DNA of 64,000 nt. Origin: Aegilops tauschii subsp. strangulata (lineage: Eukaryota > Streptophyta > Magnoliopsida > Poales > Poaceae). Below the pieces are notes generated by a model. That model was not told where the DNA came from. It saw only the letters and a list, made by a program, of their open reading frames with translations, and made no database searches. Every line of letters begins with the position of its first letter. Within the stretch, counting starts at the first letter, position 1. Both the position numbers and the translations under genes were made by a program. The stretch covers positions 159,378,627-159,442,626 of the forward strand of contig NC_053036.3 of assembly GCF_002575655.3 (NCBI RefSeq). Direction: 5' to 3'. Positions 15,261 to 40,188 of this stretch are shown here, in pieces.

Positions 15261-15494
15261 GTTAATTCCAGTTATATGGTACTCAATGTATGATCAAATC
15301 GACTGTTTAAAGTGAATGATGAAAGATTTCGACAGATAAGTGGTAGTACTCCACATCTGAAGTCCACAATACCCGAACACGCCACCGGGATTCTTGTGTC
15401 ACCTCACGCGCAGCGTGTTGTCACGTCAATTCAATGTGAAGACATGATGAATAATTTGACCGACGTATACTAGTACTGCTACTGTAATACTTAC

Positions 15495-15695
15495 TAGTCG
15501 TATTTAGTGTCACATTTTAACCATAGGTTTAACTCACAAAATGTCAATGCATGTCACCGAAAATTATTCCATTGAAACTACGTTCAAATACGAATAAAAT
15601 GATATAATTTTTTTCTGACATGCATTAACATTTAGTTAGTGAAATTTATGGTCAAAATTTGACACAAATTACGAAGGGGACCAGTAAACTAGGAG
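15495..15695. mobile_element. Stowaway-like MITE, degenerate
   Basis: The right end reads ...aggagggag (reverse complement CTCCCTCCT), and the interior contains inverted 'gacatgcattaacatttt' type arms (about 15548 and 15617) typical of small Triticeae Stowaways. The left end is decayed, so the limits are approximate. Confidence 0.4.

Positions 15696-15869: not shown

Positions 15870-15922
<53 letters not shown>
15870..15922. repeat. (TA)n microsatellite, left flank of TA-bounded element 1
   Basis: About 26 TA units, directly abutting the inverted terminus at 15923. Confidence 0.95.
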
Positions 15923-15924
<2 letters not shown>

Positions 15925-17794
15925 GCTATTCTGTTATGCGTAACAGAATATTATTCTGTTACCCTACATGAACTGATAATTCAAGCGGCTGAACTAATGA
16001 AATTCGAGCGCTTGAACTGATGCTTTCTGTTTCTGTTAAAAATCATCTTATTTAGTTCAATTTTTTTTGCAATTTTTTGTCGAAACGGGGCGTGTAATAT
16101 ATCTTAGGAAAGCTCTTGACATCAACATTACAATTTTATAATTTGCTTTTGCAAAAAAATATGGTTCAAGAGCAGTTTTGAAAAAACCGTTTTTTCCAAA
16201 ACCGAAAATGCAAATCGTATTTTGGACTTAATTTTCAAACGGTTTGTCGGAATTGAGCAAATGAGATGGCATTGGAAAGCTTGGGAAAATCCGCATCTTC
16301 CATATATCTACTTTTTTCAAATCATATATGATTTAAAAGTAATTTGAAAAATGGTGAAATTCTGGGGAAAAGTATTTTCCCTGTTTTTTGCAAATGTTTT
16401 GTCGGATTGACGCAAACGATTCGGTGTTGGAAAGCTATGGAAACCGCACAACTTTTGCGTATAGAAAGTTTTTTCTAATTCCTTATGGTTTAAATACGAA
16501 TTCAAATACGGTTAAAGTTGGTTTTGAACGTGATTTTGTTAAAAAGTTTATTGAAATGGTGCAAATAATATACCATTGAAAAACTACCGAAAATGCGAAA
16601 CTTAGTCATGTTAAACATTTTCTCAAATTCGCAATCGTTTAAGAGTAATTTTGAATACGGCAAGACGGATTCTGCTATTTTCCCGTCTGAAAAACAGAGT
16701 ACTCGTACTGATATATGTATGTGTTTGTACTGAGCTATTTTTTGTAGAGTAATTTTGGATTATTCTGAAAAAAGAGTACTTGTACTGATGTTTGCATGGG
16801 TTTGTACTAAGCATGTTTTCACTAACTAGACTTTGATCTGTTTTTGGGTAATATTTTTGCTCGTAAATTTTCAACGGTTTACTGTATCGTCGCCCCTGTA
16901 CTTGCATGGTTTGTATCATCGAACTGAATGATATTTTATTCAAAAAGAAAATGTTTTGTTTTGTTTCTTTTTTTTGAACTCAACATTTTTTGACAACAAT
17001 GTTCTGAACTTCTCTCATTTTACGACTTGTACTGAGGTACTTACTAAGTAGGATTTTCATGGGGTTTCTTTTTTTGCTTGAACTTTTACAATTTGAATTT
17101 CTGACATTTCTTTTATTCCGAACGGACCACCGTTTTTAACTCGTACTGAGGTACTTAATACACCCGAATTGGGGTGGCTGTCGCGTGTCTCGGCGAGGAA
17201 GAGGACGAAGCTCGGGGGCGAGGCTGGATTCGGCCGGCGGCTGGTCCGGTCGGTAGGATGCTGTGCAAGGCGGGGGTGACAGGCGCAGGGCGGTGGGGCT
17301 CGGAGTGGCGGCGCACGGCGGAGGGGCTCGGGGTGGCGGCGCGGGGCGGGGATGGCGGTGCGTGGCGGCGGAGGGAGGCTCGGATGGCGCGCGGCAGCCG
17401 CCGGAGGCGGGGACGGGCCGGCGAGCTCGTCGGAGGCGAGGCGCGTGGGGAGGATCCGGCACCCGTCGATGGGGAGGTGCGCGGGGAGGGACCGCGCCCG
17501 TCGGAGGGAAGGCGCGCGGGGAGGGGCCGGCGAGCCCGTCGGCGGGGAGGCGTGCGGAGGGCCGGCCGGCGGCAGCACGTGGGTCGGAGGAGCGACCCGT
17601 CCCTGCGCCGCGGGCTCCCTCGCTCCGGCGGCCGTCGTTGCTCTCTCGCCCGGGGCGGTTGCCTCCGGCGGTAGGAGGCGGGTTAGGTTAGGGTCAGGCC
17701 GGGGAGTTTCTGCCATGGCCTGCGCGTCGCGCCCTTATAGGGCCGAGGGGTAAAAAAATAATATTCCATTACTAGTAACAGAATAGTCCAGCCC
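15923..17794. mobile_element. TA-microsatellite-bounded element 1 (1.87 kb), unrecognised family
   Basis: The termini are inverted: GGGCtattctgtta at the left and a right end whose reverse complement is GGGCtggactattctgtta. Each end holds a subterminal palindrome built on ATTCTGTTA/TAACAGAAT. Between them lie about 150 bp diverged tandem units marked by 'ggaaagct' (16095, 16273, 16427, 16575), a zone with repeated 'tgtactgag' motifs (16700-17160), then a GC-rich island (17165-17745). No transposase is recognisable. TA tracts flank both sides. It shares architecture with the larger element at 17811-22945. Confidence 0.6.
17057..17716 (-). other. GC-rich open frame in element 1 (219 codons), coding status doubtful
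   Basis: A Pro/Ala/Arg-rich frame reads inward from the right end of the element. The matching plus strand also has several long frames, as expected from composition near 75-80% GC. It could be a captured grass 5' exon or CpG island. No domain is seen. Confidence 0.2.
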
Positions 17795-17810
17795 TATATA
17801 TATATATATA
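17795..17810. repeat. (TA)8 tract shared by the two TA-bounded elements
   Basis: This 16 bp tract is the only sequence between the inverted ends of element 1 and element 2. Confidence 0.9.
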
Positions 17811-18129
17811 CACATAAACACTATTCTAATCACGGGATCAGAATATTATTCTGATCACAACATGAACTTCATGAGTTACACGCCTGAACTTCCCTCTGTA
17901 GGAACCCGACCTTCGGGCTATCTTCTCAACCGTGGCTTCTACCGCGAGTTTTTCTGATCATTGGTGTTGTTTGTGATGTAAGTGTAATGTGGACACGGTT
18001 TTTAGCAACTAAATGCCCGTTTTAAATAGGAATATCGCTCATTGGCGTATTTGCTCTCGGGTCGTGATGAAACAAGCATGTGTTGCAATTTTACTGCCTG
18101 GGCTGTTCGACCTGAACTTCCCCCTGTGC

Positions 18130-19110
18130 TAGGTTGAACTCCAGCCAACATTGCCCAAATGGGGCTTGCGATATACCGTTGGAAAGCTATGGACACCAGT
18201 ATCATGACCCAAGTTAATTTTTTTGCAAAACGTAAGCGGTTTAAGAGCTGTTTTGAAAACCCTTTTTCTTCATACAAAAAACGTGAATCGTATTTTCGAT
18301 CGTATTTCTAAACCATTTGTCGAAATGAGGCAAATAATATGGCGTTGGAAACCTACTGCAAAACCGCTTCTTCCACATGTGGAAAGTTTTCTCTATTTCC
18401 CTATGGTTAAAGAGGAATCTGGAAAATCGTATATTTTTACAAACCGAACAGCCGAGTTCATATTTTCGATGTCATTTTTAAACGGCTTATCCAATTGAGA
18501 CAAATGATATGGCGTTGGAAAGCTTATGAAAATGTGCTACTCTTTGATGTTTAAAGTTTTTTCTAATTCGGAACAGTTTAAAAGTAATTTAGAAAACGGT
18601 CGAAGTTGCACCGAGTTTGTATTTTCGAGCTAATTTTTTAACCGTATGTCCGAATGCAGCAAATGATATGGCATTGGAAAGCTTGAGTCAATGTGAAACT
18701 TTTTGGTATATACTGTTTCTCCCAATTCCTTACTGTTTTAAGTCAATTTTGAAAATGGCTAAAAATGTGTTTTTGCCGTAATTTCTACAAACTTTACCGG
18801 AATGGGGAAAATAATATACCATTGAAAAGCTACGGAAAATGCGAAACTTTTCCATGTTGATGGTTTTCTCTGATTCCTAGCTGTTTTCAAGTAATTTCGA
18901 AAACGGCGAGATCATTTGTTCTGCCTTTATCGCGAAACAGATTCTTCGAAAATGCACCGCGTGAAGAACTTGAACTTCTCGGCATGCCTACCTGAACTTC
19001 ACTCTGTTTTTCACGTGGTTTTTTTTGCCCGTAGATCTCCATCCACTCACCGGAACACTCACCGGAATTGAGCAAGTGATATACCGGTGGAAAGCTGCTG
19101 TAAACATGCA
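18130..19110. repeat. Diverged ~165 bp tandem repeats
   Basis: The phrase 'g(t)ttggaaagct' recurs at about 18179, 18345, 18515, 18674, 18822 and 19087, each preceded by 'caaatgatat' and followed by 'gaaaatg' and 'ttttctaattcc'-like text. The units are degenerate, perhaps 60-75% identical. The same units occur in element 1 at 16080-16660. Confidence 0.7.
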
Positions 19111-19489
19111 ACTTTCCCGTGTTGGTCATTTTTTCATACTCGCGACGATTTTAAAAGTTTTTCATCTGAAATTCATCCATTGTAGTAGTTGAACTTCGTG
19201 TTGTTTTCAGTTGAACTTCTGTGACGTATTTTTCTTTGAAATTTTCTCATCCATCGTCAGTGTTACACAAATGATATTCCTTTTGTACAAATCTCTCTCA
19301 CAATAATTTTTTTACCTTTCTTCGACGAAGGACTTGAACTTATAACAACAAAACTTTTAGTCTTTGCTTTTTTATTCTTTTTAGTACAAAATGCACACCG
19401 TGTAGTACATGAACTTCTGGCAGTTATCAACCTGAACCTCTCTCGGTTACGTGAAAATATTTGAGCTTTTTATGAATTTTTAATCTGAT

Positions 19490-19810
19490 TTTTCTTAATC
19501 CTTTTTTATGAATTTTGAAGCGCTCTATTTTTAATAGTTGAACTTCTTGTTATTTTATTTTTGAACTTGTTGTTTCCATTCTTTATTAACGAGGAAAATC
19601 TGAGTTTTCTATAATCATCGAACTTCTCCATCTTTTTAATATGGACTTCCTGGTTTTATTTCCTAATCTTTTTTTAAGAAATTTTGAAGCGCTCTATTAT
19701 TAAAAGTTGAACTTCTTGTTTTCTAATTTTTTAACTTCTTGTTTTCATTCTTTAATAACGAGGAAAATCTGAGTTTTCTATAATCATCGAACTTCTCCAT
19801 CTTTTTCTTC
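19490..19810. repeat. 169 bp tandem duplication in element 2
   Basis: 'gaagcgctctatt' occurs at 19517 and 19686, with matching sequence up to 'catcgaacttctccatc' at about 19618 and 19786. Identity is high, near 90% by eye. Confidence 0.75.
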
Positions 19811-22015
19811 AGTACGTGGTACATGTGAACTTATGAATTTCTGAAACACGAACTTCGCATGCTATTGAATTTTAAGAAACTTACACACAACAATACACAT
19901 ACACTTTGTGTGCTACATGCATTTACACAGAAATGAATGAACAGATCTGAAAGAGCATAAAGTTCTCATGTAGAGTCCAAAAAATAGAGTGAAATTTTTT
20001 CCACAAGAAATGTTGAACATTTTGGTAGGCAAACCTGTACAATTTTTCAATTGGTTTGCACGTTGAACAGCGTCATTGTTACAAACTGAACTTCTCTTTT
20101 CTTTTCTTCTAATAAAAACAAACACTATAAATTATAATCTTTGTTATTTTAATCTCAACTTCTTAGTGCGGATCCATGTCGGCAGTGCGCGGTTGGCCAG
20201 ATTCGTGGAGGAGTAGGGGCTCCGACCGATGTAGCTGACAACAACTGCACCACTGGCATTTTTCTTCTACAAACTTCTAGCATTCTCATATTAATTGAAC
20301 CTCTAAAATTATACTTATTGAACTTCATGTGGTTTTTGTACAAAACTCGCTAGCATTTTTTGTTTTGTTGAATTCCATTTTGCTTTCCAAGGCTTTTTTC
20401 AACATAAAAAACTTTATTTGTTTTCAATGAATTTTTGGATTACAACAAGCACCCATGGAGCATGCGCATTTTGCACAACCACTTTTGAATGAAGTGCTAT
20501 TTTTTGTGCACTTTTAAAGTACATATAACATGATGCCAAACTGCAGAAAATACCAAATCCAAACTGCTCCCGCATATATTAGCGAGCTGAACCTCAAGCA
20601 TGGAACCTCAAGTACGGACAAACATCAAGACCAATAGTCAGGAACCTAAAGCATTATACCACTACTGAAGCTATACGGCCAACTAGCAATTTGCAAAACA
20701 AAACAAAGGGAACGGCCAGGTGCTCTATCAAAGGGAACAATTTTTTCTTTGAAACCACCTCTAATTTGCTGCAAGTCTACAACAATCACAAAACACAACA
20801 TTTGAACCTACTGCTGTTTTTTCTTCTTCTCCAATATACATTGAACTGCTGAGGTGCCATAGTTGAACGATTGAGGCGCTGTGGCGCCTGCTGTAGGTGG
20901 TGGACCTAAGTGGCAGTGGCGCGCGACCAGGTGCAGGTCGAGACCTCCCCCATCTACAGATGGAGCCACTCTAACGCAGCAGCGGCAAGATGATAGGTAG
21001 GTCTTTCCAAAAACAAAAGTGAGAGAGACATTGTTTGATCCTTAGGCATTACACCGAACAGCTGTGGAGCGCCATCTTTGGCCACTGAAAAACAAAACCC
21101 AACAAAGATCAGGCATGGACACTTCGCTGTAGCACATGGTACATCGGTGTGAAAATTATGAGCTTGTGGATCATTTTACCCGTGGATCTTGAGGGGTTGC
21201 GGTACAGTTGGAATTTCGTCCGTCTGCAACTATGGCCGGTGAACTTCGTGTGGCGGCGCAGTTGACCTGCGGGAGCATGGTGGGGGAGACCGAAAATGGA
21301 TCCCTAAATGTGGTGGTATGCCTAAACACCCTTTCTACACACAAAAATAAAAAAATAAAATGTGTGCCACGTGAGAGATGTGGCCTTCTCTGCACCACAT
21401 GTTGCATTTCTATCTTGTCAAGCTCTGTCTACTGAGCTATGTGCTCTCGACCAAAGGTAGCATGGCAGGAGAAACTAGTACTTGCTTCATCAGAACAAAA
21501 AAAAGAGCTAAGCACAAAAATGCTTCAGTTGTAGCACGCATAATAGCAAACACATAGAGTGCACCCGGTTCACATTCAGAATACATAAAGATTGGCTTTC
21601 TGGCTAAGCATCTCTACTTCCAATTTTAAGAGTAACAAAAAACATGGGTGTGCCAAACTGAGATAAGAGAGACTGAGAGGGTAGCATCAGCACATGAGAC
21701 TGTGGAGAGAAAGAAAGAGCTTCAGCCACACATCGACACATGCCCAAAAGCTACGTGTGTAGTGAGTCGAAGTAGGAGCTCACTGTTGGCTTTGAGCTAG
21801 CTGGCTACAGGAGTTGAACGGCGTGGAGGGGCTGCGTCGAACTGCTGCATCTCCCGCCGGCTCGAGCCACCTCCGTGTGACACCCTTGCAGCCTAGACAG
21901 TTAAGTTATGTGCAGTTCAATCAGTCGAGATGGTAAAGTTCAGTTAACAAAACTGCGGAAACAAGAGAAGAAATGCATCAGTTTTGTACAGAAGAAACAC
22001 AAAATCCGGCAACCA

Positions 22016-22909
22016 CTAGTCGAGGTCGGTGACATCCGCTGCGGGGAATGAGATTGCGTGGCTAGTGGGAGCTCGGGTGTGAGTAGCCTCGAAGCAAACA
22101 CTAGCAACCGAGTAGATCCAAACAGAGCAGCAGGGGCGAGCTTGATTCCTCGTCCAAAAATGGCCAAGTTCTGGGAGCGAGCCCCATGGACGCACATGAG
22201 GTAGAGAAGAGCTTGACCGAGGTGATGCACCGGCGACCGATCTGGCGACAACAGAGAATATCCAATGACGGCATGTCGAATCCGTCCATCCGCTGCTATG
22301 ACATTTGAACTTCGGGCAGCGGCGGGGGAGGCCTGCATGGCACGGGCGAGGCAAGAAGCTAGGGGCACATGCCCAGATCCAGGTGCGGTTGGCGACCGCC
22401 CTGTTCCCCGGCGGCGGCGGGGTGGAGGCGATGTGGAGGCGGGTGGCAGGAAGAAGGCAGGGCGCGACGGCGGTGCCCATGGTGGCCGAATGTTTCGGTG
22501 GCGGTAGCGTGCTGGGAGCGGGGTGAAGGCTGTGACCTTCGTTGAGGTGGCGTCGGAGCTCGTCGGGAAGCAGGGATCCGGTCGGCGGCGGGGCTGTTGG
22601 AGGTGGGGCTACGACGGGAACTTGGTGGAGGCGGAGCGGCGCATCGAGGGGAGGTGGTGAGAAGCCGGGACGGCGGCGCGTCGGATGGAGGTGGTGGGAT
22701 GGTGCCGCGGCGGTGGTCAGAAGCTGGGCCGGCGGCGCGGCGGTTGTGGCGGGGGTCGAGACCTCGACGACGTTGGACGGGGGGGAGGTTGGGGACCGAG
22801 GAAGTGGTGGACGAGCAGGCGTGGGCGTGGACTTTTGTGTTTTTTCTCTCTGCGGGTTTGGAAGTTCGGGAGGTCCCTGTCGGGCCCTATATAGGGCCTC
22901 GTGATCCAA
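22016..22909 (-). other. GC-rich open frame in element 2 (297 codons), coding status doubtful
   Basis: A Pro/Ser/Ala-rich frame with no recognised domain, reading inward from the right end exactly as the frame in element 1 does. Several overlapping frames exist on the opposite strand. It could be a captured first exon. Confidence 0.2.
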
Positions 22910-22942
22910 AAAGTTATTCTAATCCCAGGATTAGAATAGTGC

Positions 22943-22945
<3 letters not shown>

Positions 22946-22996
<51 letters not shown>
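22946..22996. repeat. (TA)n microsatellite, right flank of element 2
   Basis: About 25 TA units abut the inverted end at 22945. The sequence beyond (22997-23174) is the 3' flank of the DUF295 gene. Confidence 0.95.
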
Positions 22997-22999
<3 letters not shown>

Positions 23000-23174
23000 T
23001 TCTACACAGCATCTCCATCATCATTATCAGTACATCCTACGCAGGTGAGTTAGGATGCACTTGATCCCAGAAAGGTATATATCCTTCAAACCAGAGGAGT
23101 GCTTCAAACTAACAACAGTACATAATATCTAACAAAAGAGGGTCATGCTACAGCAGCAGGATACATGGCTCAGT

Positions 23175-23743
23175 CTAGATATCAGTATGAATCAAGTTGT
23201 GCATATTTGCCGTTGGCATGAACCACATCGCCGCATGTCGGGTTTGCAAAAGCCATCCATCGCATCGAAGCTTGATGCCTTTCACACACTGAAGATTATC
23301 TGGCAACAAGCTGTGTCGACGAATCTCTGGATATGGTGATTCATGAAACCCATGGTATGATGTGTAAACACAGTTCCCCCTGGCGAATGGAAGTTGCATA
23401 GCACGGTAATCATCGCCGGTGATATGATCGATCATTGGTTGGATGATCGGATAATTGAGCCCGAGGAACATGGAGTGGTTGCCGAGGCTGTAAACCCGCC
23501 CCCAGTTGAATACGCCTGGCCCAATGGAGCTGGGATCTTTCTCGAACACGAAGCAGCCATAGCCATCAATGTCACAAACGCCCCAGGCATTGTACTGCAT
23601 GTGGTTTGATGAAATGGTTTGGTCAATTTGGTACGTGCAAATGAGCATCAAATGACAGCCGTCAGCTGAACGAGCGATAAACCACCACCCATCGGCTGGT
23701 ATGATTCCAGGTCCTGCAATCATGAAGGCCAGCGCATTTGCGT
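23175..23743 (-). pseudogene. DUF295 gene 1, exon 2 (C-terminal domain)
   Basis: An open frame of 189 codons follows an AG acceptor at 23745-23744. It contains the family's GRVYSLGNHSMFLG and ARGNCVYTSYHGF-like C-terminal segments and ends at 23175. Joined to exon 1 at 24640, the split codon is TAC (Tyr). Nothing in this exon itself is broken. Confidence 0.8.
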
Positions 23744-24356: not shown

Positions 24357-24602
24357 TATCAACTCTAAGCAATAACATGCATTGTTATAAAAATCCTCGA
24401 AATGAGAGTAACATATAGCAATCATGAGGTTATACTCATAATATCTATTCTAACAATCATTAGATGCCAATTGTTCTCATATCAACTCTAACAATAACAT
24501 GTGTGGTCATAAAAATCTAGGAAATGAGAGGAACATATAGCAATGATGTGGTTATAGACATACTATATATTCTAAATTTGTAACAATGAACAGGCAGTCG
24601 TA
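24357..24602. repeat. 123 bp tandem duplication
   Basis: Units start with 'tatcaactcta' at 24357 and 24480 and share 'aataacatg' and 'gaacatatagcaat'-like text. They lie within the DUF295 intron. Confidence 0.6.
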
Positions 24603-24639
24603 TTCCTAAGGTAAAGATGAGATGAGATAGAACAATTAC

Positions 24640-25212
24640 ACGACGATAGATTCCACCAGTATAGGCAGCCAATCTGTGTGTCGACCGCATAAATGATGCC
24701 ATCGTGCACTATAGCATCAGACAGAAATGTTGGGTGAAGAGGATCGACGATGAGCCATAACCATGTATGGCGACCGAATTCCAGATAGACTAATCCCATG
24801 TTGAACACGGCAATGAACTTGTAATCCATGTAGTCTTGTGATGGTGTGGACACTTCGCAGATTACAACCTTCAGCAAACAGATGTCGAGCCAAAAGCTCG
24901 ACGCGTCTCGTGCGTAGTAGGCAGGAGTGTCCAGCGGGCCGCGAGGCTCGATGGCGGCGGTATCCAACGATGGAAGGGTGATCTCTCGATGGGTGTAGAT
25001 ATCCACGAGACACCACGAACTAGCGGATTGGTGGATGAGGACGATCCAGTTGGCCTTCATGCCCACCCAGTAGTGGCCGCACATGAAGGACAGGTGGACG
25101 GGTAGTGGTAGCATGTCGAGGGGCACCACGGCAACCTCCGTAGGACCGTCAAGTCGGTGTCTGGGCCACCTACGAGGATCGGGCATCAGCAAGCAGGGTG
25201 TCTTGAAAAGAG
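24640..25212 (-). pseudogene. DUF295 gene 1, exon 1 part b
   Basis: 191 in-frame codons follow the retrotransposon breakpoint, beginning at the target duplication 25208-25212 and ending at a GTAATT donor (24639). The frame carries the middle of the DUF295 domain (for example GHYWVGMKANWIVL and AVDTQIGCLYWWNLSS). No stop is present in this segment. Confidence 0.8.
25208..25212. other. Target site duplication AAGAG, left copy
   Basis: Identical to 35353-35357 and directly abutting the TG/CA ends of the Gypsy element. Confidence 0.95.
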
Positions 25213-26734
25213 TGATGACCCACAAGTATAGGGGATCTATCATAGTCCTTTCGATAAGTAAGAGTGTTGAACCCAACAAGGAGCAGAAGGAAATGACAAG
25301 CGGTTTTCAGTAAGGTATTCTCTGCAAGCACTGAAATTATTGGTAACAGATAGTTTTGTGATAAGGTAATTTGTAACGGGTAACAAGTAATAAAAGTAAA
25401 TAAGGTGCAGAAAGATGGCCCAATCCTTTTCGTAGCAAAGGACAAGCCTGGACAAACTCTTATATAAAGGAAAGCGCTCCCGAGGACACATGGGAATTAT
25501 CGTCAAGCTAGTTTTCATCACGCTCATATGATTCGCGTTCGTAACTTTGATAATTTGATATGTGGGTGGACCGGTGCTTGGGTACTGCTCTTCCTTGGAC
25601 AAGCATCCCACTTATGATTAACCCCTCTCGCAAGCATCTGCAACTACGAAAGGAGAATTAAGGTAAACCCAACCATAGCATGAAACATATGGATCCAAAT
25701 CAGCCCCTTACGAAGCAACGCATAAACTAGGGTTTAAGCTTCTGTCACTCTAGCAACCCATCATCTACTTATTACTTCCCAATGCCTTCCTCTAGGACCA
25801 AACAATGGTGAAGTGTCATGTAGTCGACGTTCACATAACACCACTAGAGGAAAAACAACATACATCTCATCAAAATATCAAACGAATACCAAATTCACAT
25901 GACTACTTATAGCAAGACTTCTCCCATGTCCTCAGGAACAAACGTAACTACTCACAAATCATATTCATGTTCATAATCAGAGGGGTATTAATATGCATAA
26001 AGGATCTGAACATATGATCTTCCACCAAATAAACCAACTAGCATCAACTACAAGGAGTAATCAACACTACTAGCAACCCACAGGTACCAATCTGAGGTTT
26101 TGGGACAAAGATTGGATACAAGAGATGAACTAGGGTTTGAGAGGAGATGGTGCTGGTGAAGATGTTGATGGAGATTGACCCCCTCCCGATGAGACGATCG
26201 ATGGTGATGACGGTGGTGATGATTTCCCCCTCCCGGAGGGATGTTTCCCCGGCAGAACAGCTCCGCCGGAGCCCTAGATTGGTTTCGCCAGGTTCCGCCT
26301 CGTGGCCGCGGTGCCTCGTCCCGAAAGCTTGCTTATGATTTTTCCTCGGACGAAAGACTTCATATAGCAGAAGATGGGCACCGGAGGCCTGCCAGGGGGC
26401 CCACGAGACAGGGGGGCGTGCCCAGGGGGTAGGGCGCGCCCCCCACCCTTGTGGCCAGGGTGTGGGCCCCCTCTGGTTAATTCTTTCGCCAGTATTTTTT
26501 ATATATTCCAAAATGTGCCTCCATGAAGTTTCAGTACTTGTGGAGTTGTGCAGAATAGGTCTCTAATATTTGCTCCTTTTCCACCCCAGAATTCCAGCTG
26601 TCGACATTCTCCCTCTTCATGTAAACCTTGTAAAATAAGAGAGAATAGGCATAAGTATTGTGACATAATCTGTAGTAATAGCCCATAATGTAATAAATAT
26701 CGATATAAAAGCATGATGAAAAATGGACGTATCA
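25213..26734 (-). repeat. 3' LTR of the Gypsy element (1,522 bp)
   Basis: It starts TGATACGTCC on the minus strand at 26734 and ends ...GGGTCATCA at 25213. It differs from the other LTR by roughly 40 substitutions and a few indels by eye, yet 25590-26194 is identical to 34229-34833 over 605 bp. Confidence 0.95.
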
Positions 26735-26750
26735 ACTCCCCCAAGCTTAG
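26735..26750 (-). promoter_or_regulatory. Polypurine tract of the Gypsy element
   Basis: The minus strand reads AAGCTTGGGGGAGT immediately before the 3' LTR, the expected plus-strand priming site. A second similar purine run (AGCTTGGGGGAGG) lies at 28270-28283, between pol and the additional frame's downstream region. Confidence 0.8.
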
Positions 26751-28315
26751 ACCTCGCTTGTCCTCAAGCGGAAGTCGATATCGAAAAATATGACCACATG
26801 TTTAGAGATAGAGGTGTCGATAAAATAAAATACGGACATGAGGGCATCATGATCATTCTTATAACAGCAACATATATATATATATATATATTGTCATATG
26901 GTTTCTTATGCTAAAGTAACAATCTATTCATAATGTCAAGTATGAATCAGAAGCGTCATTGAAAACTAACAAACTATGATCTCGGTCATTGAAGCAATTG
27001 CAATTTATCATAACATGAGAAAGAGTCAATATAAGAGCTTTTCAGCAAGTCCACATACTCGACTATCATTTAGTCTTTCACAATTGCTAACACTCACGCA
27101 ATACTTATGGGTATGGAGTTTCAATCGGACACAGAGAAAGATAGGGGCTTATAGTGTTGCCTCCCAACCTTTTACCTCAAGGGTAATGTCAACAATAATA
27201 GTTCATGATAACTTACATCCAATTGGATATATATATCAGGATCTTTCCAACACAATGTGCTTGCCAAAGGATAAAATGTAAAAAGGAAAGGTGAAGATCA
27301 CCATGACTCTTGCATAAGGTACAAGACAAGAATAAAAGATAGCCCTTCGCAGAGGGAAGCAGAGGTTGTCATGCGCTTTTATGGTTGGATGCACGAAATC
27401 TTAATGCGAAAGAACGTCACTTTATATTGCCACTTGTGATATGGACCTTTATTATGCAGTCCATTGCTTTTATTGCTTCCACATCACAAGATCGTATAAA
27501 GCTTATTTTCTCCACACTAATAGATCATACATATTTAGAGAGCATTTTTTATTCCATGCAACAATGACAACTTACTTGAAGGATCTTACTCAATCCATAG
27601 GTAGGTATGGTGGACACTCATGGCAAAACAGGGTTTAAGGATATTTGGAAGCACAAGTAGTATCTCTACTTGGTGCAAAGAATTTGGCTAGCATGAGGGG
27701 GAAAGGCAAGCTCAACATGTTGGATGATCCATGACAATATACTTAGTTTCGGATATAAGAAAACATAACCCATTACGTTGTCTTCCTTGTCCAACATCAA
27801 CTTTTTAGCATATCATATTTTAATGAGTGCTCACAATCATAAAGGATGTCCAAGATAGTATATTTATATGTGAAAACCTCTCTTTCTTTATTACTTCCTG
27901 TTAATTGCAACGATGACCAAAACTATGTTTGTCAACTCTCAACAACTTTTATTCATCATACTCTTTATATGTGAAGTCGTTAATCTCCATAAGATCCATA
28001 TGATCTCTTTAATTCCTTTTTATTCTTTCTCTTTTATTTTATTTTTATTCCCTCAAGATCATAGCAAGATAATCAAGCCCTTGACTCAAACTAATCTTTA
28101 TTATATATATAGCTCACGAACTCGATTACATAGATAAGGATCATAAAGCAAAACTCAAAACTAGATCATACTAAAACATTATTCTACTAAATCAAGATAT
28201 TACTAAAAGGATCAAACTAAGAAAAATGGTAAAGATAGGAGTGTGATGGTGATACGATACCGAGACACCTCCCCCAAGCTTGGCAGTTGCCAAGGGGAGT
28301 GCCCATACCCGATAC
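26751..28315 (-). other. Non-coding 3' region of the Gypsy element
   Basis: About 1.56 kb of AT-rich sequence lies between the additional frame and the polypurine tract. It has no long frame and holds a short (TA)n at 26869-26890. Confidence 0.6.
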
Positions 28316-29049: not shown

Positions 29050-32000
29050 CTAGAAAGTGTCCCTTATGTATTCCTCCGGGGTTACGGTTTCAATAACATT
29101 AGTTTCAACATTTATTGGATTACTTGAGATATAATGTTTGATTCTTTGACCGTTCACCACCTTTGGATTCGTGCCTTCGAAGTTGTTGATTTTTATGGCA
29201 CCGGAATGATAGACCTCCTCGATAACGTAAGGACCTTCCCATTTAGAGAGAAGTTTTCCTGCAAAAAATCTTAAACGAGAGTTGTATAGCAAAACATAAT
29301 CACCTACGTTAAACTCACGCTTTTGTATCCTTTTGTCATGCCATCTTTTAACTTTTTCTTTAAACAGTTTGGCATTCTCATAGGCTTGGGTTCTCCATTC
29401 ATCAAGCGAGCTGATGTCAAATAGTCTCTTCTCGCCGGCAAGTTTGAAATCATAATTGAGCTCTTTAATGGCCCAATATGCCTTGTTTTCTAGTTTGAGA
29501 GGTAAGTGACATGCTTTTCCATAAACCATTTTATACGGAGACATACCCATATGATTTTTATATATATGCAGTTCTATAGGCCCATAATGCATCATCAAGT
29601 TTCTTGGACCAATTCTTTCTAGATCTATTAACAGTCTTTTGCAAAATTAATTTGAGCTCTCTATTACTCAGTTCTACTTGACCACTAGACTGTGGATGGT
29701 ATAGAGATGCAATTCTATGATTAACATCATACTTAGCAAGCATTTTACGAAAAGCACCATGAATAAAATGTGAACCACCATCAGTCATTAAATATCTAGT
29801 GACTCCAAACCTCGGAAAAATAACTTCTTTAAGCATCTTAATAGAGGTGTTATGATCAGCACTACTAGTTGGAATAGCTTCTACCCACTTAGCAACGTAA
29901 TCAACAGCAACTAAAATATGTGTGTACCCATTAGAGGAAGGAAACGGTCCCATATAATCAAAGCCCCAAACATCAAATGGTTCAATAACAAGTGAATAGT
30001 TCATAGGCATTTCTTGACGTTTACTAATATTACCAATTCTTTGACATTCATCACAAGACAAGACAAACTTACGGGCATCTTTAATAAGAGTAGGCCAATA
30101 AAAAATGGATTGCAATACCTTATGTGCAGTTCTATCTCCAGCGTGGTGTCCTCCATAAGCCTCGGAGTAACACTTGCGTAGGATCTGTTCCTGTTCATGC
30201 TCAGGTACACAACGTCTAATAACACCATCTACTCCTTCTTTATAAAGGTGTGGGTCATCCCAGAAGTAATGTCTTAAATCATAGAAAAACTTTTTCTTTT
30301 GCTGGTATGTGAAACTAGGTGGTATAAATTTAGTAACAATGTAATTAGCATAATCAGCATACCATGGAGCAGTACAAGAAGCATTTATGACAGCTAATTG
30401 TTCTTCGAGAAAGCTATCATCAATGGGTAGTGGGTCATCAAGAACATTCTCTAATCTAGACAAGTTGTCTGCAACGGGGTTCTCAGCTCCCTTTCTATCT
30501 ATAATATGCAAATCAAATTCTTGTAGCAAGAGAACCCATCTAATAAGTCTAGGTTTAACATCTTTCTTTTCCATAAGATATTTAATAGCAGCATGATTAG
30601 TGTGAACAGTTACTTTAGAATCAACAATGTAAGGTCTGAACTTATCATGGGCAAATACAACTGCTAAAAATTCTTTTTCAGTAGTAGCATAATTTCTCTG
30701 GGCACTGTCTAGAGTTTTACTAGCATATTGGATAACATTTAATTTCTTATCAACTCTATGTCCTAGAATAGCACCTACAGCATAATCACTAGCATCACAC
30801 ATAATTTCAAAGAGTAAATTCCAATCAGGTGGTTGAACAATAGGTGCAGAAATCGAAGCTTTCTTAAGTATTTCAAATGCTTCTACGCAATCATCATCAA
30901 AGACAAAAGGAACATCTTTTTGTAAGAGATTAGTCAGAGGCCTAGAAATTTTTGAGAAGTCTTTAATGAACCTCCTATAAAAACCGGCATGACCAAGGAA
31001 ACTTCTTATACCTTTGATGTCCTTAGGACACGGCATATTTTCAATAGCATCAACTTTAGCTTTATCAATTTCAATACCTCTTTCAGAAATTTTATGCCCC
31101 AAGACAATACCTTCATTAACCATAAAGTGGCACTTCTCCCAATTCAAGACAAGATTAGTTTCTTCACATCTCTGCAAAACTCAGTTAAGGTTGCTTAAGC
31201 AATCATCAAAAGAAGTTCCATAAACGGAGAAATCATCCATGAAAACCTCCACAATATTTTCACAAAAGTCAGAGAATATAGCATTCATACATCTTTGAAA
31301 GGTAGCAGGTGCATTGCATAAACCAAAAGGCATAAGTCTATAAGCAAAGGTACTGAAAGCAAGTAAAAGTGGTCTTTTCCTGATCCTCTTTTGACACAGG
31401 TATTTGAGAGAAACCAGAATAACCATCTAGATAGCAAAAATGTGTATGTTTGGATAATCTTTCTACCATTTGATCAATAAAAGGTAAAGGGTAATGATCC
31501 TTTTTAGTAGCTTTATTTAATTTGCGGAAATCAATTACCATTATATAACCTGTAACAACTCTTTGTGGGATCAATTCATCTTTATCATGGGGAACAACAG
31601 TAATACCTCCCTTCTTAGGGGCACAATGGACAGGACTCACCCACTGACTATCAGCAACGGGATAAATTATACCTGCCTCCAGAAGCTTTAGTATTTCCTT
31701 CCTTACCACTTCTTTCATCTTAGGATTTAACCGTCGTTGGTGATCAACAACCGGTTTAGGGTCATTCTCCAATTTTATTTTGTGCTGGCATAGACTGGGA
31801 CTAATGCCCTTAAGATCATCAAGAGTATATCCAATAGCAGCACGGTGCTTCTTCAGAGTTTTCAATAATTTCTCTTCTTCCTGGTCTGAAAGGTTAGCAC
31901 TAATAATAATAGGATATATCTTCTTTGCATCAAGATAAGCATATTTAAGAGTATCAGGTAATGGTTTAAGCTCAAACACGGGATCACCCTTGGGTGGAGG

Positions 32001-33760
32001 AGGATCCCCTAGAATTTCAATAGGTAAGTTGTGTTTCAAAATAGGTCCCTGTTTAAAGAACGCTTCATCTATTTCCCTTCTTTCATTCATAAACATATCA
32101 TTTTCATGGTCTAGCAAATATTGTTCTAAAGGATCGTTAGGAGGTACGGCAATAGAGGCAAGACCAATAATTTCATCTTTACTAGGCAATCCTCTATCAT
32201 GGGGTTGTCTACGAAATTTAGCAAAGTTAAAATCATGAGACATATCCCCTAATCCAACAGTAACAACATCCTTTTCGCAATCTATCTTAGCATTAACAGT
32301 ATTCAAGAAGGGTCTACCAAATATAATGGGACAAAAGTCATCTCGTGGGGAACCAAGAACAAGAAAATCAGTAGGATATTTAACTTTCCCACACAAGACT
32401 TCAACATCTCTAACAATCCCAACTGGTGAAATAGTATCTCTATTGGCAAGCTTAATTGTAACATCAATTTCTTCTATCTCAGCAGGTGCAATATCATGCA
32501 TAATTTCTTTGTATAAGGAATGAGGTATTGCACTTGCACTAGCACCCATATCACATAAGCCATGATAACAATGATCTCCTATTTTAATAGAGATAACAGG
32601 CATGCCAACAACAGGTCTATGTTTACCCTTAGTATCAGGTCTAGCAATTCTAGCGGCTTCATTACAGAAATAAATAACATGCCCATCAATATTATCGGCT
32701 AAGAGATCTTTAACCATAGCAATACTAGGTTCAACTTTAATTTTCTCAGGGGGTGTAGGTGTTCTAGTATTACTCTTACGAACCACAGTTGAAGCTTTAG
32801 CATGATCCTTTATTCTCAGAGGGAAAGGTGGTTTCTCAATATAAGTGGTAGGAACAATAGGATCAACATAATAAGTGATAGTCTTTTCTTCAATTTTAAT
32901 AGGTTCAACTACTTTTACTTCAATGGGAGGATGATATTTAAACCACTGCTCCTTAGGGAGATCAAGATGAGTAGCAAATGATTCATAGAAAGAAGCTACT
33001 ATCTCAGAGTCAAGTCCATATTTAGTGCTAAATTCACGGAAAACATTGGTATCCATAAAAGATTTAACACAATCAAACTTAGGCGTTATACCTGACTCCT
33101 TACCTTCGTCGAGATCCCAATCTTCAGAGTTGTGTTTAATTATTTCCAATAAATCCCATTTGAATTCAATAGTCTTCATCATAAAAGAACCAGTACAAGA
33201 AGTATCGAGCATGGAGCGATTATTGAGAGAAAGCCGAGCATAAAAAATTTGAATAATAATTTCTCTTGAGAGCTCATGATTGGGGCATGAATATAACATT
33301 TACTTAAGCCTCCCCAAGCTTGAGCGATGCTTTCTCCTTCGCGAGGCCAAAAATTATATATATAATTATGGTCACGATGAACCAGATGCATAGGATAAAA
33401 CTTCTGATGAAATTCCAATTTCAAACGGTTGTAGTTCCATGATCCAATATCATCACATAGCCTAAACCATGTCAATGCATTTCCCTTCAAAGATAAAGGG
33501 AAGATCTTCTTCTTGATAACATCCTCGGGCATACCTGCAAGCTTAAATAATCAACAAACTTCATCCCCATAGATTAGGTGCAAATCAGGATGCAATGTTC
33601 CATCTCCTGTAAAAGGATTAGCTAGCAGTTTCTCTATCATACCCGAAGGAATTTAAAAGTAAACATTTTCAGTAGGTTCAGTAGGTTGAGGAGCAATTCT
33701 TTGCTCTACTGGTTGAGGTGAAGATACCCCGAACAAGCCCCTCAAAGGATTATGTTCCAT
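29050..33760 (-). pseudogene. gag-pol polyprotein of the Gypsy element, multiply disrupted
   Basis: The gag start is the ATG at 33760. A retrotransposon gag segment (ALTWFRLCDDIGSW..., GESIAQAW) lies at 33480-33290. The protease (DMGASASAIP, in place of the usual D[ST]GAS) is at about 32540. RT spans about 31780-31100 with an FMDD catalytic box near 31240. RNase H starts near 30820 ([13 protein letters not shown]). Integrase has the zinc-binding HH-CC region (about 30150-30040) and the D, D, E residues within FDYMGPF, LMTDGG and GQVELSNRE. Breaks seen: TAA and TGA stops in N-terminal gag (about 33650 and 33550), a gag/pol frame change near 33220-33290, a one-base shift in RT near 31365, a TGA at 31181-31183, and a 4-base TATA insertion near 29560 that shifts the integrase tail. 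It normally makes virus-like particles and integrates cDNA; this copy cannot. Confidence 0.9.
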
Positions 33761-38370: not shown

Positions 38371-40188
38371 CTACATGTCCTCCTCCAGGTTCCAGTCCCA
38401 GGTGTTCTTCATGGATGGTATGATCCATAGCGGTGGGCAACGGGAATCATTGTCACAGCTTTCTAGTACGGTTCCACACGATGGAGACTCATCCAAGCTG
38501 AAGCGGCATAAATCAGGGATAGCGTGTCCCAGCATGTCGTTCATCCGGCGGTGCGCACTAAAGACACAACCATGCTTCATGAACGGCAGGCCTTTAGTGC
38601 CGTGCACGGAAGGTGGCATCCGCTTCACAATGGGATAGCTGTCCCCAATGAAAATCGAGTACTCTCCAAGAGTGTTCCTCGGCACCCACGTAGCATCACG
38701 GGGGGTCGAACTCGGCGCCATTCATCTGGTACACGCGGCATCTCAGATCTGGACACATGGTGACGTACACAGTCAAGGTCCATGCATAATAATGTTGTGC
38801 TCAAATATGGCGGTCAGTAATACTGTGCAGAAAATAGTACTACTCCGGTATAGAGGAAGTAAAATAACCGGTTTATTATATATAGCCACTCTTGGCTACA
38901 TGGATGAGATAGTAAGACATGGAAAAACAAAAATGGTGGCAGCTAGTGGGTTCAAGTCTTCAAGGGCCTAGCTAGCTATACACGTCCTCCAAGGTAAAAA
39001 GTACTCCTACTAGTACTAGTAAGTAGTACAACAACGAAAGAGAAGGTGAGAGGGTTAAAAAATATAATACTAAATGGAATACTTGGGTAGATGGTGACGG
39101 TCCGATCGTGGTAGATTGTGTGACCATGCTGCACATCAGTGGTACCATGGGTAATGACTGCTAAGATACTTGATCCCAATATGCCAAAGTCGGCTACAAG
39201 GTTCCAGGTTAGACCGAATCGCGGATGCAAATGCACATCCAGGATCGGCGATCTTATTTTGATCGGGGGATGATTGGTCCCTGCAAAATAATGGAGTACC
39301 GTTAGGGATGCAAATAATGGTTTGTGCATTCCGTTTGTAATCTCCCGTACCGTAGGATGGCAACCAGATGAAACAAGTCCCCTGGCTTGTCACCGTGAAG
39401 ATGCGGCCTACATGGCGCACGGCGTCTTCGAACATGTAGGGGTACAAATCTGCCGCGGCCAACATGCGCCATCCTCTGTCGTTACTGCCTCTTGCATTGA
39501 TGGCAATCCTTATGTTGAACACCACGATGAGATAGTAATCGTCGTAGCTGCGTCGCTTTGTCGGCGGGTCCGCAATTGCTATCTTCTTCGATCTCATGTA
39601 GGCATCATCATACGTATTCAAGCCCAACCAGTCCAGAAGGCCGATCCCAATGGTTGAGAAGGGGTCTACGGGAACGGCCGCACTGCTGTCGATGTTGTGC
39701 AAAATGATGGTGGTATCCGGCGGGAGGTATGCAATCCAATCTTCGTTGGCACCGACCCATACTTATATATAAGACGGTGGGCAGCGGAGAAATTACGGGA
39801 TGGAAATGGAATAACTAAGTACTACATGATCAAACTCCATGACTGACCTGCTCATCAGACAAAATCCGACTACCCCTCAACGTCGGAAACTCTAGCGGAG
39901 TCAACGTGCAACCATGGCCAGGGAGCGGTGGACTGTTCGAAGGATTGTCCCATAGAAGAACCTTCTCCTCGAGGATTCATGGAAGCCCAACAAGCATGGC
40001 CTTTTCCCAAGCCTGTTTAAGCACCGTCTTGAAAAAGTTGGTGCAGGAAGCACCGAGTCTTGCGGCGGTGAGGACGTCGGAGCGGCGTGCGATTTCTCCA
40101 GAGGATCATTGTCCAAGGTCTCCCAGCCCCGACGAGGAGGAGAACCGCCTGGCAAATCCATGGGAGCGGCGACGAACTGCCTTCTCAT
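38371..40188 (-). pseudogene. F-box/DUF295 gene 2, multiple frameshifts
   Basis: Exon 1 (40188-39848; donor CAG|GTCAGT) carries an F-box-like N-terminus (GWETLDND...), then a frame change near 40093 into an RSDVLTAARLGASCTNFFKTV segment, and a premature TGA at 39979-39977. Exon 2 (from 39761) holds the middle of the DUF295 domain (EDWIAYLPPDTTIILHNIDSS onward) and loses frame around 39180-39290. The C-terminal exon (about 38760-38371) has a frame change in a C6 run near 38698 and then the conserved end (GDSYPIV, LPFMKHGCVF, DLCRFSLDES, PPLWIIPSM). Same strand and family as gene 1, so this was a tandem F-box pair. Borders after exon 2 are uncertain. Confidence 0.75.

Follow-up and report, generated by a model that had tools for sequence, protein, structure and literature searches.

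Two adjacent mobile elements of related families framed by TA microsatellites in Aegilops tauschii subsp. strangulata

Microsatellite-docked arrays of transposable elements, or relatives of such elements, have been described in guayule, rice, sorghum, citrus, Medicago, maize and pineapple. The SaTar elements are reported, in the results sections of PMC5907723, from guayule, rice, sorghum and citrus, among them larger autonomous members that are defective; those sections do not deal with wheat relatives. As described in the relevant parts of the papers, SaTar, MuTAnT and the pineapple mMITE were assigned to Mutator by target-site duplications, terminal inverted repeats (TIRs) or an autonomous element (PMC5907723, PMC4486113, PMC8449440). 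Among the top-ranked titles of our searches of the open literature, with subscription literature largely outside them, there was no such report for a wheat relative; a catalogued repeat is possible. We analyzed a 64,000-nucleotide stretch of Aegilops tauschii subsp. strangulata (C2:159378627-159442626; hereafter the window), in which positions 15923-17794 (element 1, family A) and 17811-22945 (element 2, family B) are two mobile elements of two related families.

The window's own assembly (4.1 Gb, 692 contigs) was searched, and the seven contigs bearing matches are about 0.5-0.65 Gb each. Fetched loci are designated by L numbers. An earlier note on this DNA had proposed two adjacent TA-framed elements of 1.87 and 5.1 kb. 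The measured lengths were 1872 and 5135 bp, with tracts of (AT)26, (TA)8 and (TA)25.5; the proposed framing is confirmed, with the small correction that the middle tract is only 16 bp. The features are as follows.

15871-15922 (unstranded): left (AT)26 microsatellite; repeat tract seen in the sequence
15923-17794 (+): element 1, family A, non-autonomous, 1872 bp; paired left and right end matches, constant ends
15927-15964 (+): left end module of A, two overlapping hairpins formed by TATTCTGTTA in forward, reverse and again forward orientation; hairpin scan and shuffles
16081-16660 (+): tandem units of A, 149-167 bp; sequence repeats
17160-17744 (-): right GC-rich island of A, 77%, possibly promoter-like when read inward; GC count
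17733-17744 (-): inward TATA box of A, GGCCCTATAAGG, about 54 bp from the right end; motif position
17762-17785 (-): right end hairpin of A, decayed in the window copy; end comparison and folding
17795-17810 (unstranded): (TA)8 linker joining elements 1 and 2, 16 bp; repeat tract
17811-22945 (+): element 2, family B, non-autonomous, 5135 bp; L030 (5.6 kb) and L031 (about 5.0 kb) as relatives that have both ends
17822-17858 (+): left end module of B, TATTCTAATC / GATCAGAATA / TATTCTGATC; motif search, hairpin scan and shuffles
18155-19114 (+): tandem units of B, spaced 148-170 bp apart except for a last spacing of 265; identity to the A units about 69%
22280-22890 (-): right GC-rich island of B, 69%; GC count
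22885-22898 (-): inward TATA box of B, GGCCCTATATAGGG, about 51 bp from the right end; motif position
22915-22938 (-): right end hairpin of B, TATTCTAATCCCAGGATTAGAATA; hairpin scan and shuffles
22946-22996 (unstranded): right (TA)25.5 microsatellite; repeat tract
27227-27236 (-): empty site, (AT)5, at the point where L017, a paralogue of the surrounding repeat, holds an A element; paralogue comparison

Family A is a dispersed family with copies of about 1.85 kb. We scored the 40 best of 348 candidates for the A left end and the 40 best of 127 for the right end, and 14 of the 40 scored left-end matches (window included) paired with a right-end match at 1.67-1.79 kb. The exact 20-nt A right end occurred 62 times in the genome, against 0 for a reversed-pattern control. 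Copies with both ends lie in differing flanks and occur on each of the seven large contigs. For analysis we fetched the other thirteen paired copies together with seven more that had been matched by the left end. The proposal of mobile, dispersed elements tied to TA tracts was borne out by these copies, as most of their borders are TA.

The divergence among 12 short A copies was star-like, with Kimura two-parameter (K2P) distances of 0.056-0.083 over 66 pairs (median 0.069). At a substitution rate of 1.3e-8 per site per year, these distances would make the short copies about 2-3 million years old. Longer forms of 2.2 kb (L063), 5.1 kb (L026) and 9.2 kb (L027) were also found. L063 differs from the window copy by 0.17. 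L026 and the short form share ~1.1 kb on the left and about 80 bp at the right end; in L027 the shared parts are ~1.2 kb on the left, split into two pieces, and about 200 bp at the right end. As longer forms share both end regions, the 1.85-kb form looks like a deletion derivative that amplified.

We examined the borders of the A copies for microsatellites. A (TA)3 run was present within 25 bp of the border in 13 of 19 cases on the left and 14 of 16 on the right, compared with 2.1% of random 25-mers of the window outside the elements. This count leaves out the left borders of L020, L021 and L062 (displaced or truncated) and L063 (not entered; it has (TA)34). On the right it leaves out L016 and L021, which are truncated there, and L022-L025 and L028, for which no right border was identified. 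Among the non-TA left borders, L011 adjoins TG repeats and L015 CA repeats, and L013, L018, L024 and L028 have neither. Ends lying off TA tracts, which the earlier note had named as evidence against its proposal, were therefore a minority (6 of 19 left, 2 of 16 right). Hairpin clusters, at least two of whose 45 members are hairpins of no family (L025, L026), were located within 40 bp of a dinucleotide repeat of at least four units in 32 cases, against 9.8% of random positions in the same loci.

An empty site was resolved by comparison of paralogues. The region 26288-28310 of the window is a dispersed host repeat with paralogues in L017 and L013, and it has two TA sites, each beside A in a different paralogue (L017 with both flanks, L013 with the right only). 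In L017, the A element sits inside a TA run that in the window is an empty (AT)5 at 27227-27236 (TGATATATATATCC); in L013 the same point is an empty (TA)35, and the A element occupies another TA tract of the repeat, with only its right flank matched. At this one locus, insertion into a pre-existing TA repeat was shown. Empty plain-TA sites, which the earlier note had suggested looking for, thus exist at one locus, and of the insertion into or creation of TA tracts that it had considered, insertion fits there and creation is not the main story. The occupied site in L017 has 4 TA units on the left and 11 on the right, more than the empty (AT)5. MuTAnT likewise has longer tracts at occupied sites, with means of 11.7 and 15 repeats against 9 at empty sites in the data presented on insertion sites (PMC4486113). 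Two B copies, L030 and L031, border one host repeat common to both at a TA/TG site, and by eye they turn opposite ends towards it.

The flanks of the window pair were also found elsewhere. Positions 15419-15636 and 23142-23623 are both kept (~94%) in L022 (C2:167444350-167454250), a duplicated locus 8 Mb away on the same contig. L022 holds a different long A-family element between these flanks, entered within an inverted repeat; by eye, the right end of this element is lost. We take the inverted repeat to be possibly a Stowaway-like miniature inverted-repeat transposable element (MITE).

The ends of the elements were analyzed using a hairpin scan (arm of at least 10, loop of at most 8, one mismatch, ATTCT or AGAAT in the arm), the filter being chosen after the ends had been seen. 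Exactly five hairpins were detected in the 64 kb, two at the left end of element 1, two at the left end of element 2 and one at the right end of element 2, and none in each of five block-shuffles of the window. The right hairpin of element 1 (17762-17785) is decayed and was missed by the scan, and 12 of 200 shuffles fold equally well (z -2.0); the three remaining ends fold better than all 200 shuffles (z -5.2, -6.8 and -4.3). Inverted ends containing a palindrome, as proposed for both elements, were thus confirmed at three of the four ends, with decay at the fourth. The palindromic arrangement at the ends, not the single motifs, exceeds chance. Counted singly with up to one mismatch, the 10-base end motifs show no enrichment in the window: 7 were counted where 5.3 are expected, a number equalled in 25 of 100 shuffles, and 13 where 9.2 are expected, equalled in 11 of 100.

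The end motif is TATTCTGTTA in element 1 and TATTCTAATC at both ends of element 2, and TATTCTGATC is additionally present in the two inner copies of the element 2 left end. The hairpins are built from a common TATTCT core and a family-specific tail, and the module repeats in alternating orientation in A, B and partly in C. The A left end is CATCTGGGC-TATTCTGTTAC-GCG-TAACAGAATA-T-TATTCTGTTACCC and the right end, read inward, is GGGCTGGAC-TATTCTGTTAC; the window copy is without CATCT. Point changes aside, these ends do not vary except in a small number of cases where they are truncated or displaced (L016 right, L020 left, L021 both). The ends are inverted and related across ~40-50 bp, though as palindromic modules. 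Other families with the TATTCT core are C (TATTCTGCTAA), D1 (AGAATAAGYTATTCTACACCC) and D2 (AGAATAAGTTATTCTTCACCC); family E (TATTCTAATAACACC), found by eye, has direct repeats with the same core. The observation that the palindrome type differs between the two families and matches within each was confirmed and holds for further families. The factor that the earlier note supposed to bind the ends and co-evolve with them is its own inference, and no such protein was found.

For the B right end, 41 matches were listed from the best 40 of 253 candidates scored, most covering only part of the query. L030 (5.6 kb) and L031 (~5.0 kb) are B relatives with both ends, and L029 holds the right third of B at 92% identity. 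Among the matches listed, 3 of 41 B right ends were within 17 kb of any of 142 A positions (one being the window) and the next was 1.5 Mb off; the A end of L029 is absent from both position lists compared. An A left end lies 14.6 kb from an inverted B right end at C7:544425972-544440539, with a D2 element carrying both end hairpins between them, and 16.1 kb from one at C7:583655818-583672055.

Elements of different families stood side by side. The scan detected a hairpin of another family within the 1.5-kb flanks of 5 of the 13 A copies L009-L021 (L012, L013, L014, L015 and L018), which became 7 of 13 when L010 and L019 were added by eye. Further arrays are B-A-E in L014, A-D2 without a linker in L027, A-B about 20 bp apart in L029, B-(TG)n-B in L031, C fused to a truncated A in L062 and, in L064, a 5.8-kb D2 element between (TA)41 and (TA)22(GA)15 followed by B. 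The joints are TA, CA, TG or GA repeats. No element of this clan was found inside another in the arrays of the window, L012-L015, L018, L019, L027, L029, L031, L062 and L064, in a search that was not exhaustive. L018 also contains, at 1249-1460, a D1 element of only ~0.2 kb whose ends are hairpins and which may be a MITE belonging to this clan, and copia-like open reading frames (ORFs) were seen by eye in L025.

Both elements share an internal plan, as the earlier note had described: tandem units of 150-165 bp at the left and a GC-rich island at the right. The units start at 16081, 16248, 16403 and 16552 in element 1 (spacing 149-167) and at 18155, 18321, 18491, 18650, 18798 and 19063 in element 2 (spacing 148-170, the last 265), so that the measured spacing is slightly wider (148-170). 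The A and B unit sets are 69% identical across 518 bp. GC content is 77.3% at 17160-17744 and 68.6% at 22280-22890, against 32-46% in the remainder of the elements. Of the right ends tested, all 14 of A and 5 of the 6 of B have an inward TATA box 46-54 bp from the terminus, a count made without a chance control. Such a box is expected if the elements derive from ones with a gene starting there, and its conservation is consistent with ancestors that may have transcribed a gene from the right end.

Coding content was examined by Pfam scans in six frames, with stops read as X, of element 1 as a whole, element 2 (18950-22452), L026 (1400-5001), L027 (2380-9400), L030, L031 and the L064 stretch; L029 was scanned in three frames and L028 for one ORF. 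ORF lists of L022-L028, L062 and L063 were inspected by eye, which was the only inspection for L022-L025, L062 and L063. The sole match above the curated cut-off was a GBA2-type glucosidase fragment (PF12215, E 2.8e-8) in L027 (2382-9399), inside the 9.2-kb A copy. This beta-glucosidase fragment is probably a captured piece of a host gene, and L027 illustrates that such elements can carry gene fragments.

We compared the present elements with the described systems. Those of the SaTar paper, in the sections describing them, are alike in their flanking microsatellites, mostly TA, in their linear arrays of different families with none interrupting another, and in fused members after deletion (PMC5907723). 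Non-autonomous SaTar members are ~0.2-1.9 kb in that description, whereas present copies without a transposase domain in the scanned parts reach 5.0-5.6 and 9.2 kb (PMC5907723). The SaTar size range is thus not kept here; the 2.2-kb copy L063 was outside the Pfam scans. Guayule SaTar elements are described with imperfect TIRs of 40-250 bp and with 10-bp duplications in members of 11 of 15 families, whereas the present ends are alternating short palindromes with a common core, and neither such duplications nor an autonomous Mutator-like element (MULE) was found here (PMC5907723). The comparison with rice Micron made by the earlier note was apt, as Micron (rSaTar2) is presented as one of several microsatellite-targeted families; it shares TA targeting and linked arrays and differs in its size of ~380 bp, the comparison being by description and not by end sequence (PMC5907723). 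MuTAnT of Medicago truncatula also inserts into TA tracts. In contrast to the present elements, it is described as mostly 200-300-bp foldbacks with the TIR mask GGGGTTTGCTAGAACA; an element with a mudrA-like ORF is known as its putative autonomous member, and 9-bp duplications surround the 14 copies outside perfect TA tracts (PMC4486113). The pineapple Ac-mMITEs, as far as their description in the paper goes, share microsatellite flanks, the lack of an identified autonomous partner and clustering by adjacent insertion (46.1% of full-length copies), but are short MITEs, of which 1435 copies have 9/10-bp duplications (PMC8449440).

A mode of action like that of SaTar, MuTAnT, Micron and the pineapple mMITE is well supported; target-site duplications, TIRs and an autonomous element were not shown here, and for this reason the support extends to how the elements work and not to MULE membership. 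The class of mechanism is known already and the variant is new: modular hairpin ends, long non-autonomous members, a conserved inward TATA box, tandem 150-170-bp units and one captured gene fragment. Several families with recognizable ends, one with a datable burst, are present in one large genome, and the choice of microsatellite, by transposase or by recombination, therefore becomes testable once the enzyme reading the TATTCT modules is found. For wheat, the arrays may in addition be relevant to TA microsatellite markers.

Other classes of element were considered and rejected. CACTA elements have termini beginning with CACTA beside a 3-bp duplication; A begins with CATCTGGGC or GGGCTGGAC, and the string CACTA is confined to B, where it lies a few bases in from the end. 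Helitrons have a CTRR 3' end, which is absent here. Stowaway/mariner elements have a TA duplication and CTCCCTCCG-like ends; the present ends do not match, though a 2-bp TA duplication may be present.

We consider it likely that elements 1 and 2 are non-autonomous class II transposons, moved in trans and inserting into short dinucleotide microsatellites, probably by a Mutator-like enzyme. A transposase supplied by an element elsewhere would recognize the end modules (TATTCT core and family tail in alternating orientation), and the element would insert into a short dinucleotide microsatellite, mostly (TA)n. The flanking tract may expand afterwards, and later elements may land beside earlier ones, giving linear, non-nested arrays, because insertion would enter a microsatellite and leave a microsatellite on both sides. 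The most likely enzyme is a Mutator-like transposase, as has been claimed for SaTar, for MuTAnT and for the pineapple elements.

Several observations weigh against this interpretation. Hairpins were below the scan cut-off in 2 of the 20 fetched A loci (L021 and L023), where the ends are decayed. As the earlier note had recognized no transposase, so the scans detected no transposase domain in element 1, element 2 (18950-22452), L026, L027, L029, L030, L031 or the L064 stretch. The longer relatives that it had suggested looking for do exist, but the Pfam scans of L026, L027, L029, L030, L031 and L064 and the ORF lists read by eye revealed no autonomous relative. Such a hairpin is absent from the 30 best MULE (PF10551) loci (150 of 5479 candidates scored; 3.3 kb each), a weak negative since only 30 of 5479 candidates were viewed and ends may lie outside the 3.3 kb. 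A 9-10-bp target-site duplication was not visible by eye in L013, L015, L018 and L027, which are without TA on one or both sides, so a hallmark of Mutator is missing, although at TA-flanked borders such a duplication would be masked by the TA; the outer border of the A left end is CATCT or ACATCT, and the parity of TA units therefore gives no duplication length. L013 and L018 have TA on the right side only, possibly because part of the TA is a portion or a product of the right end of the element.

The rival explanations overlap with the preferred one, and the likelihoods attached to them need not sum to one. The missing duplication and the hairpin-free MULE loci, together with ends that are short alternating palindromes and not long plain TIRs, would also suit a mobilizer that is not Mutator-like, that is, another DDE transposase or a hairpin-recognizing recombinase acting on the TATTCT modules with little or no duplication at TA. 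We regard this as possible but rather unlikely, since the TA targeting, non-nested arrays, fusions and variable microsatellites closely match the Mutator-related systems as their papers describe them (PMC5907723, PMC4486113, PMC8449440), and the MULE negative is weak. It is doubtful, though conceivable, that the ends form a modular recognition code of a TATTCT half-site and a fast-changing tail of 4-6 bases, perhaps read by non-Mutator hairpin-recognizing enzymes leaving no fixed duplication, in a clan of non-interfering elements that share one landing zone.

Two further explanations concern the microsatellites. Entry by homologous recombination of circular intermediates with microsatellite filler, a model set out in the SaTar paper (PMC5907723), differs in the insertion step only; flanks and linkers with CA, TG or GA repeats (L011, L015, L022, L031, L064) and the lack of a fixed duplication are in its favor, but the empty site resolved within the window comprises just (AT)5, 10 bp, which is short for homologous recombination (the other paralogue has (TA)35), and we think this route improbable. 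A little more improbable still is that the TA tracts were carried or made by the elements through slippage in gap repair and were not a pre-existing target. TA beside the right end in 14 of 16 copies, including L013 and L018 without left TA, and the 4 and 11 TA units of L017 against (AT)5 in the window would be explained in this way; the paralogous empty sites, however, are already TA ((AT)5 in the window, (TA)35 in L013), and some copies adjoin CA, TG or GA repeats. Tandem units and GC islands alone look satellite-like, but it is extremely improbable that the pair is immobile, whether as low-complexity blocks paired by chance or as a segmental duplication of satellite type: copies that share both ends lie in differing flanks across all of the seven large contigs, and the reversed pattern has no match. 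Chance origin was rejected on the counts of hairpins (5 against 0 in shuffles) and exact right ends (62 against 0 reversed).

Other sequences were identified to the right of the transposon pair in the window. Two pieces of KIB1-4 beta-propeller (PF03478) genes are located at 24575-25306 and 39139-39762, the second below the Pfam cut-off, and retrotransposon ORFs with RNase H, integrase and reverse transcriptase domains are located between them at 29561-33299.

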